Source: Sipunculus nudus
Lineage: Eukaryota > Annelida > Sipuncula > Golfingiida > Sipunculidae
Assembly (NCBI GenBank): GCA_026874595.1
Contig: CM049316.1
Coordinates: forward strand, 63,407,176 to 63,471,175
Reading direction: 5' to 3'
Length of the DNA: 64,000 nt
Part shown: in pieces, positions 1 through 60,054 of the stretch
Layout: each line of letters begins with the position of its first letter
Numbering within the stretch: the first letter of the stretch is position 1
Notes under the pieces: generated by a model
Databases searched by the model: none
What the model was told of the DNA's origin: nothing
The model's input: only the letters and a program-made list of their open reading frames with translations
Position numbers and translations under genes: made by a program

Positions 1-677
1 AAGATTTATTGTCAATTACAAAGAACGAAATATACCATGTTTGTAAGTCTGATAAAATTGTTTTAAAATGTTTGAATTATTTGTGTTGATGGCATTACTC
101 GAACAGATTCAGATATTTTTCGAAAACGTGTGAATCGAAAATACAAATTTCAAAGATTGCGCTTTACTGAGTACCCTCTAGTTATATTTGACCGATTGAA
201 TGAATGTACCGAAATATGATATATATTTAGCAAACGCTTATTTGAGCCCAGTGTAGGCGGTTGCATTATAGTTATCGGTTTTACCAAACGTCATGCCGCC
301 TGTCCGTCCGTCACGGTCGTTCGCGCGCATTGTAAAGTCAAAGACCGTTCCGGCCACTGCCGCGAATTTTGACTGAAGATATATACTTTTACCAGGACGA
401 GCGCGATTGATCTCAAACCGATCAGAAATCCGTAACGTCGACAGGCAGGCATCATAGAATTTTCTGATCACGAGCAATAACGAAGAACCTTTAATGTCTC
501 AGTCATTTCTGGTCATTATTCTGTGATATGTACTCTTAAAAAATAATTCACCACCTTGAAAATTAATGGAAAGCTGTTATAGACCGTATAAATATCACAG
601 TTCCCCGTATATTCTTTGTCCGGATTATTAATAATATTCTTTGGTGAGTGTTACGTAAGAGAGTAAATGAACGCATC

Positions 678-699
678 CAGGTGGAGATAACATGAGTCA
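678..699. promoter_or_regulatory. E-box / GATA / AP-1-like cluster in spacer (unit 1)
   Basis: CAGGTG, AGATAA and TGAGTCA occur within 22 bp and recur in essentially every unit. Unit 23 has lost the AP-1-like part. It sits about 1.1 kb upstream of the TATA box of the neighbouring left-hand unit's gene, and about 430 bp past the hairpin of its own. A candidate enhancer or insulator; function not shown. Confidence 0.3.
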
Positions 700-1030
700 C
701 GGTAAGGTTGCATCACAGGTGTGCTTTGTACGCCAGGAGTAAGGTGGTCCCTGATCCAAGTGAATGACAATGGTCTGGAAATCGGATGAGTTCAAGAAAT
801 TACGCTATCTCGAAATCGGAAAGAATGCCGTAAATAGGAAATGTACTTTATCTGTTGCAGATTAAATAAATATTTATTTCGAGGTTGTAGACCTAACCTG
901 CAACAAAGTTTCATGAAGATCGCATCCTTACCTTTTAAAATTAGTTGCTGACAGACAGAGAGATCAACCGCGAAAGCGAGAGCATGAAATCAACAAACAC
1001 CGATAAAAACATAATGCCTCCTCACGAAGA

Positions 1031-1093
1031 TGTAATAAAAATAATAAATATTTACAAGAATAATAATTATAATAAAAATTGTAATAATTATGA
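1031..1093. other. AT-rich tract (recurs in every unit)
   Basis: A run of A/T with rare C or G and many taata/ataat steps. Two length classes exist. Units 1, 2, 4, 5 and others have aataaaaataataaatatttacaag; units 3, 6, 8, 10, 13, 15, 18, 22, 26 and 28 have a shorter aaaaaataaatattta form. It codes for nothing I believe. Confidence 0.7.
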
Positions 1094-1128
1094 TCGTGAA
1101 GGTGAAGGTCAGATCTGTATGAGATACT
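1078..1128 (-). promoter_or_regulatory. Strongly conserved block just beyond the hairpin
   Basis: About 50 bp on the far side of the hairpin (containing gtgaaggtgaaggtcagatc on the plus strand) is nearly invariant in all units, including diverged edge copies. It is then followed by a variable AT-rich tract. This is where a histone downstream element for U7 snRNA would sit, although the sequence is not the known purine-rich type. Confidence 0.4.
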
Positions 1129-1144
1129 GGCTCTGAAAAGAGCC
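1129..1144 (-). terminator. Histone-type mRNA 3' stem-loop (unit 1; one per unit)
   Basis: Read on the minus strand: GGCTCTTTTCAGAGCC, a 6-bp stem with a 4-nt loop, identical to the metazoan histone pre-mRNA consensus bound by SLBP. It lies 37 nt after the stop. Starts in the other units: 3051, 4985, 6916, 8847, 10772, 12703, 14637, 16559, 18493, 20424, 22355, 24289, 26220, 28154, 30085, 32007, 33941, 35872, 37803, 39733, 41665, 43602, 45547, 47490, 49432, 51370, 53300, 55231, 57166, 59142. The stem is intact in all 31. Loop TTTA occurs in units 3, 8, 10, 15 and 18. Not canonical: the 3' flank is AGTATC rather than ACC(C)A, and no CAAGAAAGA-like U7 target follows. Confidence 0.85.
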
Positions 1145-1181
1145 TTGTATTTAACTCAGTTTGAGTTTAACGGGTGTTTTC

Positions 1182-1475
1182 TCAGTTGGTGTTCTCCTGG
1201 TAGATTTGTCTGAGCTCCTGCTGAAGCACAGCCATCTGTTCCCGAAGTTTCTCTTTGTAGCGCCAGTAGGAAGCTCTGGTCTCAGGCAGAACCGCCAACT
1301 CAATGCGATTGTTGTAGCGACAGCCCCAAGCACCAGACTTCTCAGACCGCTGGTAACGCATTGCTGTTAGCTGCATTCTGTCTGCCAGTAAGGTCAGCTG
1401 CTGCTCTGCCCTCTTCAGCTTCATCTGTGTGAAGACAAGCTGCTTGTAGATAATGTTAGCTTCCGTTAATGCCAT
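1182..1475 (-). CDS. Unit 1: 97-aa basic helical non-histone protein, histone-format gene
   Basis: Function unknown; I do not recognise the family. The ATG at 1475 is chosen because it lies 53 nt downstream of a TATA box and has a strong context (CAAGATGG). The frame could be extended 15 codons only by using a TTG that overlaps the TATA region. The product is 97 aa, Lys/Arg-rich with a net positive charge. It has two predicted amphipathic helices (about residues 3-43 and 55-93) joined by a Gly/Ser/Trp turn (SEKSGAWGCRYNN), so a helical hairpin or short coiled coil is likely. There is no signal peptide, no membrane segment, and no match to the core histone or H1 sequences I know. The stop is followed by 37 nt and then a histone-type hairpin at 1129-1144, so the mRNA may be SLBP (stem-loop-binding protein)-processed and non-polyadenylated, as in S phase or oocytes (inference). 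Versus the commonest copy it has H64P. The unit lacks the CRE-like site. Confidence 0.6.
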   Translation of the reverse strand: MALTEANIIYKQLVFTQMKLKRAEQQLTLLADRMQLTAMRYQRSEKSGAWGCRYNNRIELAVLPETRASYWRYKEKLREQMAVLQQELRQIYQENTN

Positions 1476-1521
1476 CTTGAGTACCAGAATGGATCTGCTG
1501 AACTGGGATGTGCAGTTCAAT

Positions 1522-1528
1522 TTTTATA
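1522..1528 (-). promoter_or_regulatory. TATA box of unit 1 gene
   Basis: TATAAAA on the minus strand, 53 nt upstream of the ATG and present in the same place in all units. 24-29 nt downstream are CCCAGTT and TTCAGCA, either of which could be the initiator. The short leader fits a histone-style compact gene. Confidence 0.7.
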
Positions 1529-1585
1529 CTCGAAGCTGAGTAGTTCAGTGACATGTTGGTGTAGTATCAGAGCATATAGACAGCC

Positions 1586-1591
1586 CACGTG
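1586..1591. promoter_or_regulatory. E-box CACGTG upstream of TATA (unit 1)
   Basis: Palindromic CACGTG within gcccacgtgacac, about 58 bp upstream of the TATA box. Conserved in every unit except 22. The site type is bound by bHLH-zip factors of the USF/Myc/MITF class; actual use is inferred. Confidence 0.45.
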
Positions 1592-3050: not shown

Positions 3051-3103
3051 GGCTCTGAAAAGAGCCTTGTATTTAACTCAGTTTGAGTTTAACGGGTGTT
3101 TTC

Positions 3104-3397
3104 TCAGTTGGTGTTCTCCTGGTAGATTTGTCTGAGCTCCTGCTGAAGCACAGCCATCTGTTCCCGAAGTTTCTCTTTGTAGCGCCAGTAGGAAGCTCTG
3201 GTCTCATGCAGAACCGCCAACTCAATGCGATTGTTGTAGCGACAGCCCCAAGCACCAGACTTCTCAGACCGCTGGTAACGCGTTGCTGTTAGCTGCATTC
3301 TGTCTGCCAGTAAGGTCAGCTGCTGCTCTGCCCTCTTCAGCTTCATCTGTGTGAAGACAAGCTGCTTGTAGATAATGTTAGCTTCCGTTAATGCCAT
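3104..3397 (-). CDS. Unit 2 copy of the 97-aa gene
   Basis: Intact, with M39T relative to the commonest protein. Hairpin at 3051-3066, loop TTTC. First unit of higher-order copy A, matching units 9 and 17. Confidence 0.6.
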   Translation of the reverse strand: MALTEANIIYKQLVFTQMKLKRAEQQLTLLADRMQLTATRYQRSEKSGAWGCRYNNRIELAVLHETRASYWRYKEKLREQMAVLQQELRQIYQENTN

Positions 3398-3693: not shown

Positions 3694-5037
3694 CCCGCTG
3701 ATTGTGATATTTATATATTGGATATATATGTTTTTCATATAAAATTGCACAGTCAATTACAATGTACAAATTCATGATAGTCGTCGTGCGTCTGATCATT
3801 ACAATTTTTCCCCAAACAGCGGACTTTTTATTCAAATTTTCGGCTGTATCTGGAAGATTTATTGTCATTTAAAAAGAACGAAATATACCATGTTTGTAAG
3901 TCTGATAAAATTGTTTTAAAATGTTTGAATTATTTGTGTTGATGGCATTACTCGAATAGATTCAGATATTTTTCGAAAACGTGTGAATCGAAAATACAAA
4001 TTTCAAAGATTGCGCTTTACTGAGTACCCTCTAGTTATATTTGACCGATTGAATGAATGTACCGAAATATGATATATATTTAGCAAACGCTTATTTGAGC
4101 CCAGTGTAGGCGGTTGCATTATAGTTATCGGTTTTACCAAACGTCATGCCGCCTGTCCGTCCGTCACCGTCGTTCGCGCGCATTATTAACTCAAAGACCG
4201 TTCCGGCCACTGCCGCGAATTTTGACTGAAGATATATACTTTTACCAGGACGAGCGCGATTGATCTCAAACCGATCAGAAATCCGTAACGTCGACAGGTA
4301 GGCATCATAGAATTTTCTGATCACGAGCAATAACGAAGAACATTTAATGTCTCAGTCATTTCAGGTCATAATTCTGTGATATGTACTCTTAAAAAATAAT
4401 TCATCACCTTGATAATTAATGGAAAGCTGTCATAGACCGTATAAATATCATAGTTCCCCGTATATTCTGTGTCCGGATTATTAATAATATTCTTTGGTGA
4501 GTGTTACGTAAGAGAGTAAATGAACGCATCCAGGTGGAGATAACATGAGTCACGGTAAGGAAATTGCGTGGTTTAATCACAGGTGTGCTTTGGACGCCAG
4601 GAGTAAGGTGGTCCCTGATTCCAGTGAATGACAATGGTCTGGAACTCGGATGAGTTCAAGAAAATACGCTATCTCGCAATCGGAAAGAATGCCGTAAATA
4701 GGAAATGTACTCTTTCGTGTTGCAGATTAAATAAATATTTATTCCGAGGTTGCAGACTTAAAACTGCAAAAAAGTTTCATCAAAATCCCATCCTTACCTT
4801 TTAAAATCAGTTGCTGATAGATCAACCCCCAAAGCGAGAGCATGAAATCAACAAACACTGATCAGAACATGATACCTCCTCACGAAGATAAAATAAAAAA
4901 TAAATATTTATAATAATGATAATTATAATAAAAATTGTAATAATTATGATCGTGAAGGTGAAGGTCAGATCTGTATGAGGTACTGGCTCTTAAAAGAGCC
5001 TTGTATTTAACTCAGTTTGAGTTTTAGGGGTGTTTTC

Positions 5038-5331
5038 TCAGTTGGTGTTCTCCTGGCAGATTTGTCTAAGCTCCTGCTTGAGCAAAGCCATCTGTTCCCG
5101 AAGTTTCTCTCTGTAGCGCCAGTAGGAAGCTCTGGTCTCATGCAGTACCGCCAACTCAATGCGATTGTTGTAGCGACAGCCCCAAGCACCAGACTTCTCA
5201 GACCGCTGGTAACGCATTGCTGTTAGCTGCATTCTGTCTGCCAGTAACGTCAGCTGCTGCTCTGCCCTCTTCAGCTTTATCTGTGTGAAGACAAACTGCT
5301 CGTAGATAATGTTAGCTTCCGTAAATGCCAT
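5038..5331 (-). CDS. Unit 3 copy, divergent subtype
   Basis: Intact, with eight replacements: L3F, K11E, L13F, M18I, K74R, V83L, Q85K, Y92C. Hairpin at 4985-5000 has loop TTTA instead of TTTC. A hand comparison with unit 4 gives 9 amino-acid-changing and 4 silent differences in 294 bp. That is compatible with weak constraint or none. Confidence 0.6.
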   Translation of the reverse strand: MAFTEANIIYEQFVFTQIKLKRAEQQLTLLADRMQLTAMRYQRSEKSGAWGCRYNNRIELAVLHETRASYWRYREKLREQMALLKQELRQICQENTN

Positions 5332-6968
5332 CTGGAGTACCAGAATGGATCTGCTGAGCTGGGATGAGCAGCTCAATTTTTATACTCGAAGCTGAGTAGT
5401 TCAGTGACATGTTGGTGTAGTATCAGAGCATGTAGACAGCCCACGTGACACAAGTCTTTGTACTCCGTAGCGCGTGTGGTCTACTAGTGCTTGATGAGCG
5501 TCTCCGCCGCCAGCTAAAGTTTTTTATGCGAAGTGTCTGAGGAGTTTGCCTAATTACTTGAGTAGTTTGTTTGATTACCTGAGTAGTTTGTTTAACTAGA
5601 GTGGACACACGTCGGGTCCCCACGTCACCCGCTGATTGTGATATTTGAATATTGCATATATGTATATTTCATATAAAATTGCGCAGTCAATTACAATGTA
5701 TAAATTCATGATAGTCGTCATGCGTCTGATCATTACAATTTTTCCCCAAACAGCGGACTTTATATTAAAATTTTCGGCTGTATCTGGAAGATTTATTGTC
5801 AATTACAAAGAACGAAATATACCATGTTTGTAAGTCTGATAAAATTGTTTTAAAATGTTTGAATTATTTGTGTTGATGGCATTACTCGAACAGATTCAGA
5901 TATTTTTCGAAAACGTGTGAATCGAAAATACAAATTTCAAAGATTGCGCTTTACTGAGTACCCTCTAGTTATATTTGACCGATTGAATGAATGTACCGAA
6001 ATATGATATATATTTAGCAAACGCTTATTTGAGCCCAGTGTAGGCGGTTGCATTATAGTTATCGGTTTTACCAAACGTCATGCCGCCTGTCCGTCCGTCA
6101 CGGTCGTTCGCGCGCATTATAAACTCAAAGACCGTTCCGGCCACTGCCGCGAATTTTGACTGAAGATATATACTTTTACCAGGACGAGCGCGATTGATCT
6201 CAAACCGATCAGAAATCCGTAACGTTGACAGGCAGGCATCATAGAATTTTCTGATCACGAGCAATAACGAAGAACCTTTAATGTCTCAGTCATTTCTGGT
6301 CATTATTCTGTGATATGTACTCTTAAAAAATAATTCACCACCTTGAAAATTAATGGAAAGCTGTTATAGACCGTATAAATATCACAGTTCCCCGTATATT
6401 CTTTGTCCGGATTATTAATAATATTCTTTGGTGAGTGTTACGTAAGAGAGTAAATGAACGCATCCAGGTGGAGATAACATGAGTCACGGTAAGGTTGCAT
6501 CACAGGTGTGCTTTGGACGCCAGGAGTAAGGTGGTCCCTGATCCAAGTGAATGACAATGGTCTGGAAATCGGATGAGTTCAAGAAATTACGCTATCTCGA
6601 AATCGGAAAGAATGCCGTAAATAGGAAATGTACTTTATCTGTTGCAGATTAAATAAATATTTATTTCGAGGTTGTAGACCTAACCTGCAACAAAGTTTCA
6701 TGAAGATCGCATCCTTACCTTTTAAAATTAGTTGCTGACAGACAGAGAGATCAACCGCGAAAGCGAGAGCATGAAATCAACAAACACCGATAAAAACATA
6801 ATGCCTCCTCACGAAGATGTAATAAAAATAATAAATATTTACAAGAATAATAATTATAATAAAAATTGTAATAATTATGATCGTGAAGGTGAAGGTCAGA
6901 TCTGTATGAGATACTGGCTCTGAAAAGAGCCTTGTATTTAACTCAGTTTGAGTTTAACGGGTGTTTTC

Positions 6969-7262
6969 TCAGTTGGTGTTCTCCTGGTAGATTTGTCTGA
7001 GCTCCTGCTGAAGCACAGCCATCTGTTCCCGAAGTTTCTCTTTGTAGCGCCAGTAGGAAGCTCTGGTCTCAGGCAGAACCGCCAACTCAATGCGATTGTT
7101 GTAGCGACAGCCCCAAGCACCAGACTTCTCAGACCGCTGGTAACGCATTGCTGTTAGCTGCATTCTGTCTGCCAGTAAGGTCAGCTGCTGCTCTGCCCTC
7201 TTCAGCTTCATCTGTGTGAAGACAAGCTGCTTGTAGATAATGTTAGCTTCCGTTAATGCCAT
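6969..7262 (-). CDS. Unit 4 copy of the 97-aa gene
   Basis: Intact, H64P. Hairpin 6916-6931. TATA at 7309-7315. Likely transcription starts are the A at about 7291 or 7286, giving a leader of roughly 24-29 nt. Confidence 0.6.
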   Translation of the reverse strand: MALTEANIIYKQLVFTQMKLKRAEQQLTLLADRMQLTAMRYQRSEKSGAWGCRYNNRIELAVLPETRASYWRYKEKLREQMAVLQQELRQIYQENTN

Positions 7263-8899
7263 CTTGAGTACCAGAATGGATCTGCTGAACTGGGATGAGC
7301 AGTTCAATTTTTATACTCGAAGCTGAGTAGTTCAGTGACATGTTGGTGTAGTATCAGAGCATATAGACAGCCCACGTGACACAAGTCTTTGTACTCCGTA
7401 GCGCGTGTGGTCTACTAGTGCTTGATGAGCGTCTCCGCCGCCAGCTAAAGTTTTTTATGCGAAGTGTCTGAGGAGTTTGCCTAATTACCTGAGAAGTTTG
7501 TTTGATTACCTGAGTAGTATGTTCAACTAGAGTAGACACACGTCGGGTCCCCACGTCACCCGCTGATTGTGATATTTATATATTGGATATATATGTTTTT
7601 CATATAAAATTGCACAGTCAATTACAATGTACAAATTCATGATAGTCGTCGTGCGTCTGATCATTACAATTTTTCCCCAAACAGCGGACTTTTTATTCAA
7701 ATTTTCGGCTGTATCTGGAAGATTTATTGTCAATTAAAAAGAACGAAATATACCATGTTTGTAAGTCTGATAAAATTGTTTTAAAATGTTTGAATTATTT
7801 GTGTTGATGGCATTACTCGAACAGATTCAGATATTTTTCGAAAACGTGTGAATCGAAAATACAAATTTCAAAGATTGCGCTTTACTGAGTACCCTCTAGT
7901 TATATTTGACCGATTAAATGAATGTACCGAAATATGATATATATTTAGCAAACGCTTATTTGAGCCCAGTGTAGGCGGTTGCATTATAGTTATCGGTTTT
8001 ACCAAACGTCATGCCGCCTGTCCGTCCGTCACCGTCGTTCGCGCGCATTATTAACTCAAAGACCGTTCCGGCCACTGCCGCGAATTTTGATTGAAGATAT
8101 ATACTTTTACCAGGACGAGCGCGATTGATCTCAAACCGATCAGAAATCCGTAACGCCGACAGGCAGGCATCATAGAATTTTCTGATCACGAGCAATAACG
8201 AAGAACATTTAATGTCTCAGTCATTTCTGGTCATAATTCTGTGATATGTACTCTTAAAAAATAATTCACCACCTTGATAATTAATGGAAAGCTGTCATAG
8301 ACCGTATAAATATCATAGTTCCCCGTATATTCTGTGTCCGGATTATTAATAATATTCTTTGGTGAGTGTTACGTAAGAGAGTAAATGAACGCATCCAGGT
8401 GGAGATAACATGAGTCACGGTAAGGTTGCATCACAGGTGTGCTTTGGACGCCAGGAGTAAGGTGGTCCCTGATCCAAAAGAATGACAATGGTCTGGAAAT
8501 CGGATGAGTTCAAGAAATTACGCTATCTCGAAATCGGAAAGAATGCCGTAAATAGGAAATATACTTTATCTGTTGCAGATTAAATAAATATTTATTTCGA
8601 GGTTGTAGACCTAACCTGCAACAAAGTTTCATGAAAATCGCATCCTTACCTTTTAAAATTAGTTGCTGACAGACAGAGAGATCAACCGCGAAAGCGAGAG
8701 CATGAAATCAACAAACACCGATAAAAACATAATGCCTCCTCACGAAGATGTAATAAAAATAATAAATATTTACAAGAATAATAATTATAATAAAAATTGT
8801 AATAATTATGATCGTGAAGGTGAAGGTCAGATCTGTATGAGATACTGGCTCTGAAAAGAGCCTTGTATTTAACTCAGTTTGAGTTTAACGGGTGTTTTC

Positions 8900-9193
8900 T
8901 CAGTTGGTGTTCTCCTGGTAGATTTGTCTGAGCTCCTGCTGAAGCACAGCCATCTGTTCCCGAAGTTTCTCTTTGTAGCGCCAGTAGGAAGCTCTGGTCT
9001 CATGCAGAACCGCCAACTCAATGCGATTGTTGTAGCGACAGCCCCAAGCACCAGACTTCTCAGACCGCTGGTAACGCATTGCTGTTAGCTGCATTCTGTC
9101 TGCCAGTAAGGTCAGCTGCTGCTCTGCCCTCTTCAGCTTCATCTGTGTGAAGACAAGCTGCTTGTAGATAATGTTAGCTTCCGTTAATGCCAT
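8900..9193 (-). CDS. Unit 5 copy, commonest protein
   Basis: Intact and identical in protein to units 6, 12, 13, 16, 20 and 21, the reference for residue numbering here. Hairpin 8847-8862. Its upstream region has the 9-bp-shorter allele lacking the CRE-like site, unlike its partner unit 12. Confidence 0.6.
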   Translation of the reverse strand: MALTEANIIYKQLVFTQMKLKRAEQQLTLLADRMQLTAMRYQRSEKSGAWGCRYNNRIELAVLHETRASYWRYKEKLREQMAVLQQELRQIYQENTN

Positions 9194-10824
9194 CTTGAGT
9201 ACCATAATGGATCTGCTGAGCTGGGATGAGCAGTTCAATTTTTATACTCGAAGCTGAGTAGTTCAGTGACATGTTGGTGTAGTATCAGAGCATATAGACA
9301 GCCCACGTGACACAAGTCTTTGTACTCCGTAGCGCGTGTGGTCTACTAGTGCTTGATGAGCGTCTCCGCCGCCAGCTAAAGTTTTTTATGCGAAGTGTCT
9401 GAGGAGTTTGCCTAATTACCTGAGAAGTTTGTTTGATTACCTGAGTAGTATGTTCAACTAGAGTAGACACACGTCGGGTCCCCGATGATTGTGATATTTA
9501 TATATTGGATATATATGTTTTTCATATAAAATTGCACAGTCAATTACAATGTACAAATTCATGATAGTCGTCGTGCGTCTGATCATTACAATTTTTCCCC
9601 AAACAGCGGACTTTTTATTCAAATTTTCGGCTGTATCTGGAAGATTTATTGTCATTTAAAAAGAACGAAATATACCATGTTTGTAAGTCTGATAAAATTG
9701 TTTTAAAATGTTTGAATTATTTGTGTTGATGGCATTACTCGAATAGATTCAGATATTTTTCGAAAACGTGTGAATCGAAAATACAAATTTCAAAGATTGC
9801 GCTTTACTGAGTACCCTCTAGTTATATTTGACCGATTGAATGAATGTACCGAAATATGATATATATTTAGCAAACGCTTATTTGAGCCCAGTGTAGGCGG
9901 TTGCATTATAGTTATCGGTTTTACCAAACGTCATGCCGCCTGTCCGTCCGTCACCGTCGTTCGCGCGCATTATTAACTCAAAGACCGTTCCGGCCACTGC
10001 CGCGAATTTTGACTGAAGATATATACTTTTACCAGGACGAGCGCGATTGATCTCAAACCGATCAGAAATCCGTAACGTCGACAGGCAGGCATCATAGAAT
10101 TTTCTGATCACGAGCAATAACGAAGAACATTTAATGTCTCAGTCATTTCAGGTCATAATTCTGTGATATGTACTCTTAAAAAATAATTCATCACCTTGAT
10201 AATTAATGGAAAGCTGTCATAGACCGTATAAATATCATAGTTCCCCGTATATTCTGTGTCCGGATTATTAATAATATTCTTTGGTGAGTGTTACGTAAGA
10301 GAGTAAATGAACGCATCCAGGTGGAGATAACATGAGTCACGGTAAGGAAATTGCGTGGTTTAATCACAGGTGTGCTTTGGACGCCAGGAGTAAGGTGGTC
10401 CCTGATTCCAGTGAATGACAATGGTCTGGAACTCGGATGAGTTCAAGAAAATACGCTATCTCGCAATCGGAAAGAATGCCGTAAATAGGAAATGTACTCT
10501 TTCGTGTTGCAGATTAAATAAATATTTATTCCGAGGTTGCAGACCTAAAACTGCAAAAAAGTTTCATCAAAATCCCATCCTTACCTTTTAAAATCAGTTG
10601 CTGACAGATCAACCCCCAAAGCGAGAGCATGAAATCAACAAACACTGATCAGAACATGATACCTCCTCACGAAGATATAATAAAAAATAAATATTTATAA
10701 TAATGATAATTATAATAAAAATTGTAATAATTATGATCGTGAAGGTGAAGGTCAGATCTGTATGAGGTACTGGCTCTGAAAAGAGCCTTGTATTTAACTC
10801 AGTTTGAGTTTAACGGGTGTTTTC

Positions 10825-47836: not shown

Positions 47837-49453
47837 CTTGAGTACCAGAATGGATCTGCTGAGCTGGGATGAGCAGCTCAATTTTTATACTCGAAGCTGA
47901 GTAGTTCAGTGACATGTTGGTGTAGTATCAGAGCATGTAGACAGCCCACGTGACACAAGTCTTTGTACTCCGTAGCGCGTGTGGTCTACTAGTGCTTGAT
48001 GAGCGTCTCCGCCGCCAGCTAAAGTTTCTTATGCGAATTGTCTGAGGAGTTTGCTTAATTACTTGAGTAGTTTGTTTGATTACCTGAGTAGTTTGTTCAA
48101 CTAGAGTGGACACACGTCGGGTCTCCACGTCACCCGCTGATTGTGATATTTATATATTGGATATATGTATATTTCATATAAAATTGCGCAGTCAATTACA
48201 ATGTATAAATTCATGATAGTCGACGTGCGTCTGATCATTACAATTTTTTCCCAAACAGCGGACTTTTTATTCAAATTTTCGGCTGCATCTGGAAGATTTA
48301 TTGTCAATCACAAAGAAGGAAATATACCATGTTTGTAAGTCTGATAAAATTGTTTTAAAATGTTTGAATTATTTGTGTTGAAGGCATTACTCGAACAGAT
48401 TAAGATATTTTTCGAAAACGTGTGAATCGAAAACACAAATTTCAAAGATTGCGCTTTACTGAGTACCCTCTAGTTATATTTGACCGATTGAATGAATGTA
48501 CCGAAATATGATATATATTTAGCAAACGCTTATTTGAGCCCAGTGTAGGCGGTTGCATTATAGTGATCGGTTTTACCAAACGTCATGCCGCTTTGTCCGT
48601 CCGTCACGGTCGTTCGCGCGCATTATTAACTCAAAGACCGTTCCGGCCACTGCCGCGAATTTTGACTGAAGATATATACTTTTACCAGGACGAGCGCGAT
48701 TGATCTCAAACCGATCAGAAATCCGTAACGTCGACAGGCAGGCATCATAGAATTTTCTGATCACGAGCAATAACGAAGAACCTTTAATGGCTCAGTCATT
48801 TCTGGTCATTATTCTGTGATATGTAATTTAAAAAATAATGCACCACCTTGATAATTAATGGAAAGCTGTTATAGACCGTATAAATATCATAGTTCCCCGT
48901 ATATTCTGTGTCCGGATTATTAATAATATTCTTTGGTGAGTGTTACGTAAGAGAGTAAATGAACGCATCCAGGTGGAGATAACATGAGTCACGGTAAGGA
49001 AATTGCGTGGTTGCATCACAGGTGTGCTTTGGACGCCAGGAGTAAGGTGGTCCCTGATCCCAGTGAATGACAATGGTTTGGAACTCGGATGAGTTCAAGA
49101 AATTACGCTATCTCGAAATCGGAAAGAATGCCGTAAATAGGAAATGTACTCTATCATGTTGCATATTAAATAAATATATATTCCGAGGTTGCAGACCTAA
49201 CCTGCAACAAAGTTTCATCAAAATCCCATCCTTACCTTTTAAAATTAGTTGCTGACAGACAGATAGATCAACCGCGAAAGCGAGAGCATGAAATCTACAA
49301 ACACTGATAAAAACATAATACCTCCTCACGAAGATATAATAAAAAAATAAATATTTATAATAATGATAATTATAATAAAAATTGTAACAATTATGATCGT
49401 GAAGGTGAAGGTCAGATCTGTATGAGATACTGGCTCTGAAAAGAGCCTTGTTT

Positions 49454-49780
49454 TTAACTCAGTTTGAGTTTAACGGGTGTTTTCTCAGTTGGTGTTCTCC
49501 TGGTAGATTTGTCTGAGCTCCTGCTGAAGCACAGCCATCTGTTCCTGAAGTTTCTCTCTGTAGCGCCAGTAGGAAGCTCTGGTCTCATGCAGTACCGCTT
49601 ACACTCAATGCGATTGTTGTAGCGACAGCCCCATGCACCAGACTTCTCAGACCGCTTGTTACGCATTGCTGTTAGCTGCATTCTGTCTGCCAGTAACGTC
49701 AGCTGCTGCTCTGCCCTCTTCAGCTTCATCTGTGTGAAGACAAGCTGCTTGTAGATAATGTTAGCTTCCGTAAATGCCAT
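49454..49780 (-). pseudogene. Unit 26 copy, frameshifted
   Basis: Normal up to residue 59, with L3F, Y41N and Q42K. A net 2-bp insertion near 49599 (accgcttacactc instead of accgccaactc) then moves translation to another frame that stays open to 49454. The second helix is lost and replaced by a Cys/Arg-rich tail. Hairpin 49432-49447 is intact and only 6 nt beyond the new stop. Confidence 0.8.
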
Positions 49781-51396
49781 CTTGAGTACCAGAACGGATC
49801 TGCTGAGCTGGGATGAGCAGCTCAATTTTTATACTCGAAGCTGAGTAGTTCATTGACATGTTGGTGTAGTATCAGAGCATGTAGACAGCCCACGTGACAC
49901 AAGTCTTTGTACTCCGTAGCCCGTGTGGTCTACTAGTGCTTGATGAGCGTCTCCGCCGCCAGCTAAAGTTTTTTATGCGAAGTGTCTGAGGAGTTTGCCT
50001 AATTACTTGAGTAGTTTGTTTGATTACCTGAGTAGTTTGTTCAACTAGAGTGGACACACGTCGGGTCCCCACGTCACCCTCTGATTGTGATATTTATATA
50101 TTGCATATATATGTATTTCATATAAAATTGCAAAGTCAATTACAATGTACAAATTCATGATAGTCGTCGTGCGTCTGATCATTACGATTTTTCCCCAAAC
50201 AGCGGACTTTTTATTCAAATTTTCGGCTGTATCTGGAAGATTTATTCTCAATTAAAAAGAACGAAATATACCATGTTTGTAAGTCTGATGAATTTGTTTT
50301 AAAATGTTTGAATTATTTGTGCTGATGGCATTACTCGAACAGATTAAGATATTTTTCTAAAACGTGTGAATCGAAAATACAAATTTCAAAGATTGCGCTT
50401 TACTGAGTACCCTCTAGTTATATTTGACCAATTGAATGAATGTACCGAAATATTATATATATTTAGCAAACGCTTATTTGAGCCCAGTGTAGGCGGTTAC
50501 ATCATAGTTATCGGTTTTACCAAACGTCATGCCGCCTGTCCGTCCGTCACGGTCGTTCGCGCGCATTGTTAACTCAAAGACCGTTCAGGCCACTGCCGCG
50601 AATTTTGACTGAAGATATATACTTTTACCAGGACGAGCGCGATTCATCTCAAACCGATCAGAAATCCTTAACGCCGACAGGCAGGCATCATAGAATTTTC
50701 TGATCACGAGCAATAACAAAGAACCTTTAATGTCTCAGTCATTTCTGGTCATAATTCTGTGATATGTACTCTTACAAAATAATTCACCACCTTGATAATT
50801 AATGGAAAGCTGTCATAGACCGTATAAATATCATAGTTCCCCGTATATTCTTTGTCTGGATTATTAATAATATTCTTTTGTGAGTGTTACGTAAGAGAGT
50901 AAATGAACGCATCTAGGTGGAGATAACATGAGTCACGGTAAGGAAATTGCGTGGTTGCATCACAGGTGTGCTTTGGACGCCAGGAGTAAGGCGGTCCCTT
51001 ATTCCAGTGAATTACAATGGTCTGGAACTCGGATGAGTTCAAGAAATTACGCTATCTCGAAATCGGAAAGAATGCCGTAAATAGGAAATGTACTCTATCG
51101 TGTTGCAGATTAAAAAAAAATATTTATTCCGATGTTGTAGACCTAACCTGCAAAAAGTTTCACCAAAATCCCATCCTTGCCTTTTAAAATCAGTTGCTGA
51201 CAGATCAACCCCCAAAGCGAGAGCATGAAATCAACAAACACTGATAAAAATATAAAACCTCCTCACGAAGATGTAATAAAAATAATAAATATTTATAATA
51301 ATGATAATTATAATAAAAATTGTAATAATTATGATCGTGAAGGTGAAGGTCAGATCTGTATGAGATACTGGCTCTGAAAAGAGCCTTGTATTTAAT

Positions 51397-51711
51397 TCAG
51401 TTTGAGTTTAACGGGTGTTTTCTCAGTTGGTGTTCTCCTGGTAGATTTGTCTGAGCTCCTGCTGTAGCCATCTGTTCCTGAAGTTTCTCTCTGTAGCGCC
51501 AGTAGGAAGCTCTGGTCTCATGCAGTACCGCCAACTCAATGCGATTGTTGTAGCGACAGCCCCAAGCACCAGACTTCTCAGACCGCTGGTAACGCATTGC
51601 TGTTAGCTGCATTCTGTCTGCCAGTAAGGTCAGCTGCTGCTCTGCCCTCTTCAGCTTCATCTGTGTGAAGACAAACTGCTTGTAGATAATGTTAGCTTCC
51701 GTTAATGCCAT
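51397..51711 (-). pseudogene. Unit 27 copy, C-terminal frameshift
   Basis: A net 5-bp loss near 51463 (ctgctgtagcc instead of ctgctgaagcacagcc) shifts the frame after residue 82 and gives a different tail of about 22 residues. The first helix and most of the second remain, so a product could still fold in part. Hairpin 51370-51385. Confidence 0.75.
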
Positions 51712-53326
51712 CTTGAGGACCAGAATGGATCTGCTGAGCTGGGATGAGCAGTTCAATTTTTATACTCGAAGCTGAGTAGTTCAGTGACATGTTGGTGTAG
51801 TATCAGAGCATATAGACAGCCCACGTGACACAAGTCTTTGTACTCCGTAGCGCGTGTGGTCTACTAATGCTTGATGAGCGTCTCCGCCGCCAGCTAAAGT
51901 TTTTTATGCGAAGTGTCTGAGGAGTTTGCCTAATTACCTGAGTAGTTTGTTTGATTACCTGAGTAGTATGTTCAACTAGAGTAGACACACGTCGGGTCCC
52001 CACGTCACCCGCTGATTGTGATATTTATATATTGGATATATGTGTTTTTCATATAAAATTGCACAGTCAATTACAATGTACAAATTCATGATAGTCGTCG
52101 TGCGTCTGATCATTACGATTTTTCCCCAAACAGCGGACTTTTTATTCAAATTTTCGGCTGTATCTGGAAGATTTATTGTCAATTAAAAAGAACGAAATAT
52201 ACCATGTTTGTAAGTCTGATGAATTTGTTTTAAAATGTTTGAATTATTTGTGTTGATGGCATTACTCGAACAGATTCAGATATTTTTCGAAAACGTGTGA
52301 ATCGAAAATACAAATTTCAAAGATTGCGCTTTACTGAGTGCCCTCTAGTTATATTTGACCGATAGAATGAATGTACCGAAATATGATATATATTTAGCAA
52401 ACGCTTATTTGAGCCCAGTGTAGGCGGTTGCATCATAGTTATCGGTTTTACCAAACGTCATGCCGCCTGTCCGTCCGTCACGGTCGTTCGCGCGCATTGT
52501 TAACTCAAAGACCGTTCAGGTCACTGCCGCGAATTTTGACTGAAAATATATACTTTTACCAGGACGAGCGCGATTCATCTCAAACCGATCAGAAATCCTT
52601 AACGTCGACAGGCAGGCATCATAGAATTTTCTGATCACGAGCAATAACAAAGAACCTTTAATGTCTCAGTCATTTCTGGTCATAATTCTGTGATATGTAC
52701 TCTTAAAAAATAATTCACCACCTTGATAATTAATGGAAAGCTGTCTTAGACCGTATAAATATCATAGTTCCCCGTATATTCTGTGTCCGGATTATTAATA
52801 ATATTCTTTGGTGAGTGTTACGTAAGAGAGTAAATGAACGCATCCAGGTGGAGATAACATGAGTCACGGTAAGGAAATTGCGTGGTTGCATCACAGGTGT
52901 GCTTTGGACGCCAGGAGTAAGGTGGTCCCTGATTCCAGTGAATGACAATGGTCTGGAACTCGGATGAGTTCAAGAAATTACGCTATCTCGCAATCGGAAA
53001 GAATGCCGTAAATAGGAAATGTACTCTTTCGTGTTGCAGATTAAATAAATATTTATTCCGAGGTTGCAGACCTAAAACTGGAACCAAGTTTCATCAAAAT
53101 CCCATCCTTACCTTTTAAAATCAGTTGCTGACAGATCAACCCCCAAAGCGAGAGCATGAAATCAACAAACACTGATAAGAACATAATACCTCCTCACGAA
53201 GATATAATAAAAAAATAGATATTTATAATAATGATAATTATAATAAAAATTGTAATAATTATGATCGTGAAGGTGAAGGTCAGATCTGTATGAGATACTG
53301 GCTCTGAAAAGAGCCTTGTATTTAAC

Positions 53327-53641
53327 TCAGTTTGAGTTTAACGGGTGTTTTCTCAGTTGGTGTTCTCCTGGTAGATTTGTCTGAGCTCCTGCTGTAGCCA
53401 TCTGTTCCTGAAGTTTCTCTCTGTAGCGCCAGTAGGAAGCTCTGGTCTCATGCAGTACCGCCAACTCAATGCGATTGTTGTAGCGACAGTCCCAAGCACC
53501 AGACTTCTCAGACCGCTGGTAACGCATTGCTGTTAGCTGCATTCTGTCTGCCAGTAACGTCAGCTGCTGCTCTGCCCTCTTCAGCTTTATCTGTGTGAAG
53601 ACAAACTGCTCCTAGATAATGTTAGCTTCCGTAAATGCCAT
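53327..53641 (-). pseudogene. Unit 28 copy, stop at codon 10 and frameshift
   Basis: TAC to TAG at 53612-53614 stops the frame at residue 10. The same 5-bp loss as unit 27 is also present near 53393. Hairpin 53300-53315 and TATA are intact. The two lesions make this copy dead. Confidence 0.85.
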
Positions 53642-55283
53642 CTTGAGTACCAGAATGGATCTGCTGAGCTGGGATGAGCAGCTCAATTTTTATACTCGAA
53701 GCTGAGTAGTTCAGTGACATGTTGGTGTAGTATCAGAGCATGTAGACAGCCCACGTGACACAAGTCTTTGTACTCCGTAGCGCGTGTGGTGTACTAGTGC
53801 TTGATGAGCGTCTCCGCCGCCAGCTAAAGTTTTTTATGCGAAGTGTCTGAGGGGTTTGCCTAATTACTTGAGTAGTTTGTTTGATTACCTGAGTAGTTTG
53901 TTCAACTTGAGTGGACACACGTCGGGTCCCCACGTCACCCGCTGATTGTGATATTTATATATTGCATATATATATATTTCATATAAAATTGCGCAGTCAA
54001 TTACAATGTATAAATTCATGATAGTCGTCATGCGTCTGATCATTACGATTTTGCCCCAAACAGCGGACTTTTTATTCAAATTTTCGGCTGTATCTGGAAG
54101 ATTTATTGTCAATTACAAAGAACGAAACATACCATGTTTGTAAGTCTGATAAAATTGTTTTAAAATGTTTGAATTATTTGTGTTGATGGCATTACTCGAA
54201 CAGATTCAGATTTTTTTCTAAAACGTGTGAATCGAAAATACAAATTTCAAAGATTGCGCTTTACTGAGTACCCTCCAGTTATATTTGACCGATTGAATGA
54301 ATGTACCGAAATATTATATATATTTTGTAAACGCTTATTTGAGCCCAATGTTGGCGGTTGCATTATAGTCATCGGTTTTACCAAACGTCATGCCGCCTGT
54401 CCGTCCGTCACGTTCGTTCGCGCGAATTTTTAACTCAAAGACCGTTCCGGCCACTGCCGCGAATTTTTACTGAAGATATATACTTTTACTAGGACGAGCG
54501 CGATTCATCTCAAACCGATCAGAAATCCTTAACGCCGACAGGCAGCCATCATAGAATTTTCTGATCACGAGCAATAACGAAGAACATTTAATGTCTCAGT
54601 CATTTCTGGTCATAATTCTTTGATATGTACTCTTACAAAATAATTCACCACCTTGATAATTAATGGAAAGCTGTCATAGACCGTATAAATATCATAGTTC
54701 CCCGTATATTCTTTGTCCGGATTATTAATAATATTCTTTTGTGAGTGTTACGTAAGAGAGTAAATGAACGCATCCAGGTGGAGATAACATGAGTCACGGT
54801 AAGGAAATTGCGTGGTTGCATCACAGGTGTGCTTTGGACGCCAGGAGTAAGGCGGTCCCTTATTCCAGTGAATGACAATGGTCTGGAACTCGGATGAGTT
54901 CAAGAAATTACGCTATCTCGAAATCGGAAAGAAGGCCGTAAATAGGAAATGTACTCTATCGTGTTGCAGATTAAAAAAAAATATTTATTCCGATGTTGTA
55001 GACCTAACCTGCAAAAAATTTCATCAAAATCCCATCCTTGCCTTTTAAAATCAGTTGCTGTCAGATCAACCCCCAAAGCGAGAGCATGAAATCAATTAAC
55101 ACTGATAAAAACATAATACCTCCTCACGAAGATGTAATAAAAATAATAAATATTTATAATAATGATAATTATAATAAAAATTGTAATAATTATGATCGTG
55201 AAGGTGAAGGTCAGATCTGTATGAGATACTGGCTCTGAAAAGAGCCTTGTATTTAATTCAGTTTGAGTTTAACGGGTGTTTTC

Positions 55284-55577
55284 TCAGTTGGTGTTCTCCT
55301 GGTAGATTTGTCTGAGCTCCTGCTGAAGCACAGCCATCTGTTCCCGAAGTTTCTCTTTGTAGCGCCAGTAGGAAGCTCTGGTCTCATGCAGAACCGCCAA
55401 CTCAATGCGATTGTTGTAGCGACAGCCCCAAGCACCAGACTTCTCAGACCGCTGGTAACGCATTTCTGTTAGCTGCATTCTGTCTGCCAGTAAGGTCAGC
55501 TGCTGCTCTGCCCTCTTCAGCTTCATCTGTGTGAAGACAAACTGCTTGTAGATAATGTTAGCTTCCGTAAATGCCAT
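55284..55577 (-). CDS. Unit 29 copy of the 97-aa gene
   Basis: Intact, with L3F, L13F, A38E. Hairpin 55231-55246. Confidence 0.6.
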   Translation of the reverse strand: MAFTEANIIYKQFVFTQMKLKRAEQQLTLLADRMQLTEMRYQRSEKSGAWGCRYNNRIELAVLHETRASYWRYKEKLREQMAVLQQELRQIYQENTN

Positions 55578-57218
55578 CTTGAGTACCAGAATGGATCTGC
55601 TGAGCTGGGATGAGCAGTTCAATTTTTATACTCGAAGCTGAGTAGTTCAGTGACATGTTGGTGTAGTATCAGAGCATATAGACAGCCCACGTGACACAAG
55701 TCTTTGTACTCCGTAGCGCGTGTGGTCTACTAGTGCTTGATGAGCGTCTCCGCCGCCAGCTAAAGTTTTTTATGCGAAGTGTCTGAGGAGTTTGCCTAAT
55801 TACCTGAGTAGTTTGTTTGATTACCTGAGTAGTATGTTCAACTAGAGTAGAAACACGTCGGGTCCCCACGTCACCCGCTGTTTGTGATATTTATATATTG
55901 GATAGATGTGTTTTTCATATAAAATTGCACAGTCAATTACAATGTACAAATTCATGATAGTCGTCGTGCGTCTGATCATTACGATTTTGCCCCAAACAGC
56001 GGACTTTTTATTCAAATTTTCGGCTGTATCTGGAAGATTTATTGTCAATTAAAAAGAACGAAATATACCATGTTTGTAAGTCTGATGAATTTGTTTTAAA
56101 ATGTTTGAATTATTTGTGTTGATGGCATTACTCGGACAGATTCAGATATTTTTCGAAAACGTGTGAATCGAAAATACAAATTTCAAAGTTTGCGCTTTAC
56201 TGAGTGCCCTCTAGTTATATTTGACCGATTGAATGAATGTACCGAAATATGATATATATTAAGCAAACGCTTATTTGAGCCCAATGTAGGCGGTTGCATC
56301 ATAGTTATCGGTTTTACCAAACGTCATGCCGCCTGTCCGTCCGTCACGGTCGTTCGCGCGCATTGTTAACTCAAAGACCGTTCCGGCCACTGCCGCGAAT
56401 TTTGACTGAAAATATATACTTTTACCAGGACGAGCGCGATTCATCTCAAACCGATCAGAAATCCGTAACGCCGACAGGCAGGCAACATAGAATTTTCTGA
56501 TCAAGAGCAATAACAAAGAACATTTAATGTTTCAGTCATTTCTGGTCATAATTTGTGATATGTACCCTTAAAAAATAATTCACCACCTTGATAATTAATG
56601 GAAAGCTGTTTTAGACCGTATAAATATCATAGTTCCCCGTATATTCTGTGTCCGGATTATTAATAATATTCTTTGGTGAGTGTTACGTAAGAGAGTAAAT
56701 GAACGCATCCAGGTGGAGATAACATGAGTCACGGTAAGGAAATTGCGTGGTTGCATCACAGGTGTGCTTTGGACGCCAGGAGTAAGGTGGTCCCTGATTC
56801 CAGTGAATGACAATGGTCTGGAACTCGGATGAGTTCAAGAAATTAAGTTATCTCGCAATCGGAAATAATGCCGTAAATAGGAAATGTACTCTATCGTGTT
56901 GCAGATTAAATAAATATTTATTCCGAGGTTATAGACCTAACCTGCAACAAATTTTCATCAAAATCCCATCCTTACCTTTTTTAAATCAGTTGCTGACAGA
57001 TCAACCCCCAAAGCGAGAGTATGAAATCAACAAACACTGATAAAAACATAATGCCTCCTCACAAAGATATAATAAAAATAATAAATATTTATAATAATAA
57101 TAATTATAATAAAAATTGTAATTATTATGATCGTGAAGGTGAAGGTCAGATCTGTATGAGATACTGGCTCTGAAAAGAGCCTTGTATTTAACTCAGTTTG
57201 AGTTTTAGGGGTGTTTTC

Positions 57219-57512
57219 TCAGTTGGTGTTCTCCTGGTAGATTTGTTTGAGCTCCTGCTGAAGCACAGCCATCTGTTCCTGAAGTTTCTCTCTGTAGCGC
57301 CAGTAGGAAGCTCTGGTCTCATGCAGCACCGCCAACTCAATGCGATTGTTGTAGCGACAGCCCCAAGCACCAGACTTCTGAGACCGCTGGTAACGCATTC
57401 CTGTTAGCTGCATTCTGTCTGCCAATAACGTCAGCTGCTGCTCTGCCCTTTTCAGCTTCATCTGTGTGAAGACAAACTGCTTGTAGATAATGTTAGCTTC
57501 CTTAAATGCCAT
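57219..57512 (-). CDS. Unit 30 copy of the 97-aa gene
   Basis: Intact, with L3F, T4K, L13F, A38G, E45Q, K74R, R78Q, R89K. Hairpin 57166-57181. Its promoter region has four 21-bp motifs and an (AT)14 run upstream. Confidence 0.6.
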   Translation of the reverse strand: MAFKEANIIYKQFVFTQMKLKRAEQQLTLLADRMQLTGMRYQRSQKSGAWGCRYNNRIELAVLHETRASYWRYREKLQEQMAVLQQELKQIYQENTN

Positions 57513-57714: not shown

Positions 57715-57798
57715 GTCTGAGGAGTTTGCCTGATTACCTGAGTAGTTTGTTTCATTACCTGAGTAGTTTGTTTGATTACCTGAGGAGTTTGTTCAACT
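57715..57798. repeat. Four tandem 21-bp motifs (unit 30)
   Basis: One more copy of the 21-bp motif than in central units; the middle copies read acctgagtagtttgtttcatt-like and are nearly identical, showing recent duplication. Confidence 0.8.
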
Positions 57799-57853
57799 AG
57801 AGTGGACACACGTCGGGTCCCCACGTCACCCGCTGATTGTGATATTTATATAT

Positions 57854-57856
<3 letters not shown>

Positions 57857-57884
<28 letters not shown>
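57857..57884. repeat. (AT)14 microsatellite in unit 30
   Basis: Expanded at a position where other units have only gcatatatgtat or ggatatatatg. Unit 31 has an intermediate (AT) run near 59833. Confidence 0.9.
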
Positions 57885-57887
<3 letters not shown>

Positions 57888-59194
57888 TCATATAAAATTG
57901 CGCAGTCAATTACAATGTATAAATTTATGATAGTCGTCATGCGTCTGGTCATTACAATTTTTCCCCAAACAGCGGACTTTTTATTCAAATTTTCGGCTGT
58001 ATCTTGAAGATTTATTGTCAATTAAAAAGAACGAAATATACCATGTTTTTAAGTCTGATATAATTGTTTTAAAATGTTTGAATTATTTGTGTTGATGGCA
58101 TTGCTCGAAAAGATTCAGATATTTTTCTAAAACGTATGAATCGAAAATACAAATTTCAAAGATTGCGCTTTACTGAGTACCCTCCAGTTATATTTGACCG
58201 ATTGAATGAATGTACCGAAATATTATATATATTTTGCAAACGCTTATTTGAGCCCAATGTTGGCGGTTGCATTATAGTCATCGGTTTTACCAAACGTCAT
58301 GCCGCCTGTCCGTCCGTCACGGTCGTTCGCGCGCATTGTTCACTCAAGGACCGTTCCGGCCACTGCCGCGAATTTTGACTGAAGATATATACTTTTACCA
58401 GGACGAGCGCGATTCACCTCAAACCGATCAGAAATCCTGAACGCCGACAGGCAGCCATTGTAGAATTTTCTGATCACCAGCAATAACGAAGAACCTTTAA
58501 TGTCTCAGTCATTTCTGGTCATAATTCTTTGATATGTACTCTTACAAAATAATTCACCACCTTGATAATTATTTGAAAGCTGTCATAGACCGTATAAATA
58601 TCATAGTTCCCCGTATATTCTGTGTCCGGATTATTAATAATATTCTTTGGTGAAATGTTACGTAAGAGAGTAAATGAACGCATCCAGGTGGAGATAACAT
58701 GAGTCACGGTAAGGAAATTGCGTGGTTGCATCACAGGTGTGCTTTGGACGCCAGGAGTAAGGCGGTCCCTGATCCCAGTGAATGACAATGGTCTGGAGCT
58801 CGGATGAGTTCAAGAAATTACGCTATCTCGAAATCGGAAAGAATGCCGTAAATAGGAAATGTACTCTATCGTGTTGCAGATTACAAAAAATATTTATTCC
58901 GATGTTGTAGACCTAACCTACAACAAAGTTTCATCAAAATCCAATCCTTACCTTTTTCAAATCAGTTGCTCACAGATCAACCCCCAAAGGGAGAGCATGA
59001 AATCAACGAACACTGATAAAAACATAATGCCTCCTCACAAAGATATAATAAAAATAATAAATATTTATAATAATAATAATTATAATAAAAATAGTTATTA
59101 TTATGATCGTGAAGGTGAAGGTCAGATCTGTATGAGATACTGGCTCTGAAAAGAGCCTTGTATTTAACTCAGTTTGAGTTTTAGGGGTGTTTTC

Positions 59195-59488
59195 TCAGTT
59201 GGTGTTCTCCTGGTAGATTTGTCTGAGCTCCTGCTGAAGCACAGCCATCTGTTCCTGAAGTTTCTCTCTGTAGCGCCAATAGGAAGCTCTGGTCTCATGC
59301 AGCACCGCCAACTCAATGCGATTGTTGTAGCGACAGCCCCAAGCACCAGACTTCTCAGACCGCTGGTAACGCATTGCTGTTAGCTGCATTCTGTCTGCCA
59401 GTAACGTCAGCTGCTGCTCTACCCTTTTCAGCTTCATCTGTGTGAAGACAAACTGCTTGTAGATAATGTTAGCTTCCTTAAATGCCAT
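59195..59488 (-). CDS. Unit 31 copy, last before the retrotransposon
   Basis: Intact, with L3F, T4K, L13F, A23V, K74R, R78Q. Against unit 4 I count 7 amino-acid-changing and 4 silent differences. Hairpin 59142-59157. The retrotransposon begins about 526 bp upstream of its TATA. Confidence 0.6.
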   Translation of the reverse strand: MAFKEANIIYKQFVFTQMKLKRVEQQLTLLADRMQLTAMRYQRSEKSGAWGCRYNNRIELAVLHETRASYWRYREKLQEQMAVLQQELRQIYQENTN

Positions 59489-59691
59489 CTTGAGTACCAG
59501 AATGGATCTGCTGAGCTGGGATGAGCAGCTCAATTTTTATACTCGAAGCTGAGTAGTTCAGTGACATGTTGGTGTAGTATCAGAGCATGTAGACAGCCCA
59601 CGTGACAGAAGTCTTTGTACTCCGTAGCGCTTGACGTCTTCTAGTGCTTGATGAGCGTCTCCGCCGCCAGCTAAAGTTTTTTATGCGAAGT

Positions 59692-59775
59692 GTCTGAGGA
59701 TTTTGCCTAATTACCTGAGTAGTTTTTTTGATTACCTGAGTAGTTTGTTTGATTACCTGAGTAGTTTGTTCAACT
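59692..59775. repeat. Four tandem 21-bp motifs (unit 31)
   Basis: Four-copy allele as in unit 30. Units 30 and 31 also share cttgacgtctt in place of cgtgtggtcta next to it. Confidence 0.8.
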
Positions 59776-59966
59776 AGAGTGGACACACGTCGGGTCCCCA
59801 CGTCACCCGCTGATTGTGATATTTATATATTGCATATATATATATGTTTCATATAAATTGCGCAGTCAATTACAATGTATTAATTTATGATAGTCGTCAT
59901 GCGTCTGATCAGTACAATTTTTCCCAAAACAGGGGACTTTTTATTCAAATTTTCGGCTGTATCTTG

Positions 59967-60054
59967 AAGATTTATTGTCAATTAAAAAGAACGAAATATA
60001 CCATGTTTTTAAGTCTGATAAAATTGTTTTAAAATGTTTGAATTATTTGTGTTG
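59967..60054. repeat. Partial unit 32, cut by the retrotransposon
   Basis: 88 bp of normal unit sequence ending tttgaattatttgtgttg, where intact units continue with atggcattactcg. The break is sharp. Confidence 0.9.

Follow-up and report, generated by a model that had tools for sequence, protein, structure and literature searches.

In a stretch of 64,000 nucleotides (nt) of the Sipunculus nudus genome (C11:63407176-63471175; hereafter the window) we found a tandem array of short genes whose 3' ends are of the type known from replication-dependent histone genes, while their product is not a histone. The array is a branch of a large superfamily whose genes lack introns and encode small non-histone proteins with two predicted helices. 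It is likely that the mRNAs of this superfamily are processed as replication-dependent histone mRNA, through the SLBP/U7 pathway and without poly(A), in cycling, germline or embryonic cells. The genome searched comprised 1.43 Gb, and all comparisons were made within this one genome, paralogue against paralogue.

The window array and its relatives

The window contained 31 exact copies of the 16-nt hairpin GGYYYTTYTNARARCC, all on the minus strand, whereas 100 dinucleotide shuffles had 0.02 on average. They belong to 31 tandem units of about 1.93 kb at positions 1-60054. An initial annotation, made from the window alone, had let the array start at coordinate 1, which is merely the window edge; by tblastn the array extends over C11:63385660-63478776 (47 matches, two of them pieces of one copy, giving about 46 copies). 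All 31 units were found to have the hairpin and, 53 nt upstream of the start codon, the annotated TATA box (TATAAA at 1523-1528, minus strand, for the copy at 1182-1475). The annotation had also counted 31 intronless frames, each with the hairpin 37 nt after the stop codon, but only 26 units have a full frame of 97 codons, and the 37-nt spacing applies to these 26. Twenty-five of the full frames begin with ATG and one (35925-36218) with ATT, and 14 of the 26 are distinct at the DNA level. The remaining five frames are broken, two by a stop after 70 amino acids (aa) and three by a frameshift or an early end.

Five dispersed loci matched the 97-aa protein in tblastn; identity was 62-66% in three of them and 37-38% in the other two. 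A histone-like hairpin was found after the stop codon in all five (L003-L007). The hairpin of L003 is one of the window variants, those of L004 and L005 differ in the loop, and in those of L006 and L007 both sides of the stem have changed together (GGTCC...GGACC). When L007 was used as the query, weak protein matches were obtained, eight of which were located just 5' of places listed independently by the Rfam Histone3 model (C14:14400049, 14409662 and 14412965; C5:44016094; C2:41939360; C2:73428260, 73435169 and 73440218). Twenty weak-match loci, including some near-duplicates, were fetched, and in 18 of them a single frame of 98-140 aa precedes a six-pair stem that departs from the consensus at no more than two places.

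Altogether, a six-pair hairpin followed the stop codon in 33 of 40 loci that were found by their protein and had a complete frame. This count combines the five dispersed loci, 18 of the 20 weak-match loci, L040 and 9 of 14 later loci; L066 and L074 were set aside, and L009, L030, L031, L036, L048, L050, L051 and L054 were excluded as found by their hairpin. The proposal of the initial annotation, a non-histone protein in the histone mode of expression, is thereby supported at the sequence level, in that these 33 loci keep both frame and hairpin.

A genome search with L011 gave at least 150 matches. Of these, 26 fell in an array at C3:79.206-79.257 Mb, 60 in an array at C2:72.58-72.69 Mb, 27 in a cluster on both strands at C3:18.78-18.97 Mb and 37 elsewhere, a few of the latter being fragments. 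Together with the 46 copies of the window array and the five dispersed loci this gives a superfamily of about 200 members, which is a lower bound. All members read as single frames and, judged from these open frames, the genes are intronless, compact and multicopy.

The remoter groups share 15-26% identity in the alignment, which has an almost gap-free common core of about 75 residues. We sorted 45 members by eye into 11 groups and built profiles leaving out each group in turn. The window group was found by the profile from the other groups with E values of 5e-12 to 2.5e-15 (per 30,000 sequences), whereas the best of 2000 shuffles reached 0.19. Nine of the other ten groups were found at 1.2e-5 or better. 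For the tenth group, L078 was found at 1.2e-5 and L048 (0.042) was not separable from shuffles (0.058); in one of the leave-one-out runs a shuffled protein got an E value of 0.0034. L048 and L049 are from a separate 1374-bp tandem array (C2:30697965-30772124; 49 matches) with a 108-aa protein, the hairpin GGCTCTTCTCAGAGCC and an AAATCTA element, and the relationship of this array to the superfamily is doubtful.

Hairpin and downstream element

Variants of the hairpin in this genome include GGCTCTTTTCAGAGCC, GGTCCTTTTCAGGACC and TGCTCTTTTCAGAGCA. The exact sequence GGCTCTTHTNAGAGCC occurred 117 times in the genome compared to 3 times for the reversed control. Outside the arrays and the H1 cluster its places were, among the matches listed, superfamily members in all but three cases. 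The singleton hairpins at L052, L053 and L055 lacked a member frame and were rejected as chance occurrences, their number (three) being that of the reversed-pattern control. The sequence GGCCCTTTTTAGGGCC was read at one place (L085), which had neither a frame nor a downstream element.

An element resembling CAGATCTA was found about 12 nt past the hairpin in superfamily loci. In all 31 window copies it reads CATACAGATCTGACC; for the copy at 1182-1475 the element CAGATCTG, which is alike in the 31 copies, lies at 1110-1117 on the minus strand and begins 11 nt 3' of the hairpin. In a set of 32 members chosen because their hairpin is paired, AGATCTA was exact in 17 and had one mismatch in 9, in every case starting 11-13 nt after the hairpin. 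In shuffled flanks the exact element was seen in 0.3% and the one-mismatch form in 5.3%. In having this element at this distance, 26 of the 32 hairpin-selected members resemble genes of the histone downstream element/U7 pathway. The vertebrate histone downstream element is usually purine-rich, whereas the one found here is CAGATCTA.

The same element or a close variant was present in the histone genes of this genome. In the core histone unit (H4, H3, H2B and H2A, 5.35 kb apart) it reads CATCAAGATCTGAGCG for H2B, CATTCAGTTCTAAGCG for H2A, CATTCATATCTAGTCG for H4 and CATTCAGTTCTCAGCG for H3, and the elements of H1 are CATCCAGATCTGAGCA and CATTCAGATCTAAGCA. H1, H2A, H2B, H3, H4 and H2A.X-like genes all have a hairpin and an element that differs by 0-2 bases from AGATCTA. 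The initial annotation had regarded the 3' flank of the array as not canonical; since the histone genes share this downstream element or have one that differs from it by one or two bases, the flank is canonical for this genome. The H1 genes and the H2A.X-like gene, whose product ends in SQEY, carry both hairpin and element and lie away from the core unit, at L081-L084 (C14:32.8 Mb, C14:56.3 Mb, C2:10.1 Mb and C2:8.2 Mb), L038 (C2:27.1 Mb) and L086 (C17:8.9 Mb).

With the downstream element alone as anchor, 32 of 48 loci had a fully paired stem 9-13 nt upstream of it, compared to 2.1% of control positions. L066 and L074, which have no complete member frame, and L049, which is from the same array as L048, were left out of this test. 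Sixteen loci had no paired stem at the anchor, and nine of them do have a hairpin, which this anchor failed to capture. For covariation we used 28 rows (19 distinct), after removing 12 loci whose element had two or more mismatches as well as 8 near-duplicates. Ninety percent of the stem cells were paired and 18 two-sided changes were counted, where shuffles gave 4.8 and none of 2000 came as high, a comparison that is weakened by the shuffles not preserving the relatedness of the rows. This pattern is that of compensatory change in the stem. An earlier count with two-sided changes in 4 of 6 pairs was biased, as its rows had been preselected for pairing.

Two further features of the hairpins were observed. 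Two or three hairpins or near-hairpins follow the stop codon in series at L006 (C1:96375547), L007 (C13:66431993) and L051 (C4:46075848). In a subgroup of four members (L012, L015, L029 and L073) the hairpin is closed by T-A (TGCTCT...AGAGCA) and not by G-C.

Histone mRNA is described with hairpin, downstream element and U7, and with another proposed element, AATCC, in C. elegans, in PMC1924863. The hairpin is reported for clam histone mRNAs, and purine-rich elements for some of them, in PMC6210712. Like replication-dependent histone genes, the superfamily genes are intronless and short, lie in tandem clusters and have an GGYYYTTHTNARRRCC-type hairpin soon after the stop codon, followed by the downstream element or a close variant. 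They differ in that the product is not a histone (H1, H2A, H2B, H3 and H4 were excluded), that the promoters often have TATA and TACTCA, and that they lie in arrays of their own, apart from the H4-H3-H2A-H2B unit and the sampled H1 loci. To judge from its anatomy, a superfamily gene works like a replication-dependent histone gene, yet it cannot be counted among these, since its product is not the one that defines them.

The Rfam Histone3 model listed 74 matches in the genome. The 15 above the cut-off of 34 bits were six superfamily loci and nine places of a multicopy element, and the H4 gene of the core histone unit scored 33.3 bits, just under the cut-off. The multicopy element is dispersed and has outward-facing histone-type hairpins, GGCCCTTTTCAGGGCC and GGTCCTTTTCAGGACC; it was found at C2:12634790-12638110 and at eight similar places on C3, C4 (two), C5, C9, C16 (two) and C17. 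At L032 and L041 it has frames of 94 and 111 aa, whose ends lie 21-29 nt before a hairpin; the flank is CGGTCTGG, and no Pfam match was found. A mobile element seems to use histone-type 3' ends as well. At L037 (C6:42943501) a 350-aa frame, with no Pfam family above chance, ends 34 nt before GGCCCTTTTCAGGGCC, which is followed by AGATCTA. L034 and L035 (C1:68237874 and C13:53479572) have GGCCCTTTTCAGGGCC and the flank ATGTCTAAGC with no frame just before, and L033 and L039 have a hairpin without a frame directly before it.

Promoters, products and selection

Of 21 non-redundant members, 15 had a TATA motif in the 200 nt upstream of the gene (2.6 expected). TACTCA occurred 33 times, in 13 of the 21 (2.5 expected). 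Each unit of the window array has one block of a 21-bp tandem repeat upstream of the gene, such as that at 1681-1736, and a motif count placed CTACTCA in some of the repeat units.

The AlphaFold model for 11 window copies consisted of two long helices, 2-47 and 50-96, with a mean predicted local distance difference test score (pLDDT) of 94.7 and a predicted template modelling score of 0.76; two of the five models reached 94-95 and three 73-75. The product is thus predicted to be a two-helix protein without a histone fold. Foldseek gave 556 matches at E of 10 or better, none of them at 0.001 or better, and the top matches (LSD1, Vipp1 and SMC-like arms) were dismissed as generic helical hairpins. 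In a profile search of PDB sequences the best of 18 matches were BAP31 (E 2.4e-4) and dynein heavy chain (0.0018), which were put down to coiled-coil likeness.

All Pfam matches shown for single members were under the curated cut-offs. Over 28 members no convincing relative was found in Pfam (best E 0.0019, among the best 25 of 43 families) or NCBIfam (best E 0.0035). Neither a histone nor IER was among these best 25 of 43 Pfam families, and no histone was among the PDB sequence matches (2 and 18). For the window protein, the 97-aa sequence matched no transposase or reverse transcriptase family in Pfam (frames of the unit spacer were listed and left unsearched). The stretch RYSLRLxLSV may bear a faint resemblance to IER2/IER5, whose genes are likewise small and intronless.

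The initial annotation called the protein basic. This fits the window group, with an isoelectric point (pI) of 9.7, but not the family, where pI ranges from 5.0 to 10.8 and is below 7 in 8 of 21 members. A simple DNA-packaging role is therefore unlikely for the whole family.

We estimated the ratio of nonsynonymous to synonymous substitutions (dN/dS) by the Nei-Gojobori method over 25 paralogue pairs, which are not mutually independent. A ratio was obtained for 21 pairs, and every one was below 1; three of the 25 pairs were saturated. In 16 pairs with dS above 0.1 the ratio was 0.10-0.43, some of these being near saturation of dS. By this measure the superfamily paralogues are under purifying selection, which for the superfamily answers the caveat of the initial annotation that substitution counts do not prove coding constraint.

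In the window, full copies on the minus strand have their coding sequences at 1182-1475 (hairpin 1129-1144), 3104-3397 (3051-3066), 5038-5331 (4985-5000), 6969-7262 (6916-6931), 8900-9193 (8847-8862), 10825-11118 (10772-10787), 12756-13049 (12703-12718), 16612-16905 (16559-16574), 18546-18839 (18493-18508), 20477-20770 (20424-20439), 22408-22701 (22355-22370), 24342-24635 (24289-24304), 26273-26566 (26220-26235), 30138-30431 (30085-30100), 32060-32353 (32007-32022), 33994-34287 (33941-33956), 37856-38149 (37803-37818), 39786-40079 (39733-39748), 41718-42011 (41665-41680), 43655-43948 (43602-43617), 45600-45893 (45547-45562), 47543-47836 (47490-47505), 55284-55577 (55231-55246), 57219-57512 (57166-57181) and 59195-59488 (59142-59157). 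The copy with ATT replacing ATG at 35925-36218 has its hairpin at 35872-35887. The damaged copies, on the same strand, are those with a stop after 70 aa at 14771-14983 (hairpin 14637-14652) and 28288-28500 (28154-28169), those with frameshifted frames at 49454-49780 (49432-49447) and 51397-51711 (51370-51385), and one with a stop after 9 aa at 53612-53641 (53300-53315). The array is bordered by a retroelement-like stretch from about 60054 to beyond the window end (60054-64000 within the window). This stretch has a 496-aa frame and a second frame, running off the window, which looks like an endonuclease and reverse transcriptase.

Proposed processing of the messages and alternative explanations

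In the mechanism that we propose, SLBP would bind the hairpin and the U7 small nuclear ribonucleoprotein would pair with the CAGATCTA-type element that lies some 12 nt beyond it. Cleavage between the two would give an mRNA without poly(A), with its 3' end directly behind the hairpin, and this mRNA would be stable and translated while SLBP is present. The TATA promoters, many with repeated TACTCA, would drive the genes and tandem amplification would raise the dose. As a consequence of SLBP/U7-type processing, expression would be confined to cells in which SLBP and the histone-processing machinery abound, i.e., S-phase cells, oocytes or cleavage-stage embryos. The proteins are probably oligomeric helical-hairpin scaffolds or binding partners that are needed in bulk. 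A gene for SLBP is present in the genome, with two adjacent exon matches on C1 above the Pfam cut-off.

A number of observations weigh against histone-type processing of functional genes. The hairpin was not found in three members (L010, L017 and L080), and in L067, L068, L069 and L078 the downstream element is kept and the stem is broken or altered. The stems of the core H2A and H2B genes have an A-T rather than a G-C closing pair, and the TATA/TACTCA layout was not seen when the promoters of the core histone genes were inspected by eye. A gathering search of the window with Rfam gave nothing above cut-off, which may be explained by the length of the Histone3 model (with 46 positions it covers more than the hairpin), and the window array was not among the 74 listed Histone3 matches in the genome. 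The folding energy of the stem region was only mildly unusual (z of -2.2, -2.2 and -0.2 in three members). For the U7 small nuclear RNA, the Rfam model gave six matches in the genome, none above cut-off. Patterns made of a complementary 5' end and an Sm site matched 28 places compared to 12 for the control, and none of the six that were read had a convincing 3' hairpin. A laxer pattern gave 6337 matches, overwhelmed by a dispersed repeat, and no convincing U7. With the ATT-start copy included, 6 of the 31 window copies are damaged. Five closer paralogue pairs had dN/dS of 0.27-0.71, and L026 and L040 differ by 6 nonsynonymous and 0 synonymous changes. For the array alone the question of coding constraint is answered less well than for the superfamily, with a proportion of nonsynonymous to synonymous differences (pN/pS) of 0.54, which is expected of young or homogenised copies.

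The main rival explanation, which we nevertheless consider unlikely, is that SLBP, or a protein like it, binds the hairpin so that maternal mRNA can be stored, localised or translated, and that the 3' end is formed by ordinary cleavage and polyadenylation downstream. Some animal histone genes have both the hairpin and a poly(A) signal, and we found AATAAA or ATTAAA within 200 nt of the stop codon in 4 of 21 members. However, counted within this distance such signals were rarer than in shuffles, where the mean was 7.5 members. Moreover, a downstream element at the spacing of histone genes would not be needed for storage alone, and it points to U7-dependent cleavage.

It is still less probable that the arrays are satellite-like, made of selfish or decaying duplicates with a captured histone 3' end and a protein without host function. 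The high copy number, the homogenised arrays, the damaged window copies and internal stops in some copies elsewhere would fit such an origin, as would the histone-type hairpins of the separate multicopy element in the same genome. Against this, divergent paralogues on several chromosomes have mostly retained frame, hairpin and downstream element, their dN/dS is 0.10-0.43 at dS above 0.1, and their stems have changed in a compensatory manner. No transposase was among the best 25 of 43 Pfam families for the 28 members, and the matches to viral structural proteins, Herpes_V23 in one member (E 0.01) and Vesivirus VP2 in two (best E 0.016), were no better than chance. The NCBIfam model of IS110 transposase matched one member with an E value of 0.033.

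A family of divergent histones, histone variants or sperm basic proteins would share the histone gene format and the pI of 9.7 of the window member, but is very improbable given two long predicted helices (pLDDT 94.7) in place of the three-helix histone fold, no Foldseek match at 0.001 or better, no histone among the best 25 of 43 Pfam families or the PDB sequence matches, and a pI below 7 in 8 of 21 members.

In the open PMC literature no non-histone gene family with a histone-type 3' end was found among the matches listed (titles and abstract openings, most subscription journals being outside). A lead from Ilyanassa, IoLR5, was dropped, as the name was absent among the matches listed in the open literature. 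Because this search gave no such family, we rate a class of non-histone genes with histone-type 3' ends as categorically new, as far as sequence goes.

On balance we favor the wider view that a second, non-histone class of replication-type mRNAs has evolved in a lineage of animals. It would comprise about 200 or more genes in several arrays and about ten subgroups, most of them SLBP/U7-processed, and would supply helical-hairpin proteins of a hitherto unknown family in bulk to S-phase, germline and cleaving embryonic cells while being hidden from poly(A)-selected RNA sequencing. If this is true, a large non-histone clientele breaks the rule stated in a 2018 paper (PMC6303110), and the SLBP/U7 pathway is a possible mode of expression rather than a peculiarity of histones. 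Phenotypes of SLBP and U7 loss of function in such animals would then be partly non-histone, and poly(A)-selected transcriptomes would miss whole gene families. The genes also offer a natural library of hairpin and downstream-element variants. Altogether, these observations suggest that histone-style messages are not for histones only.

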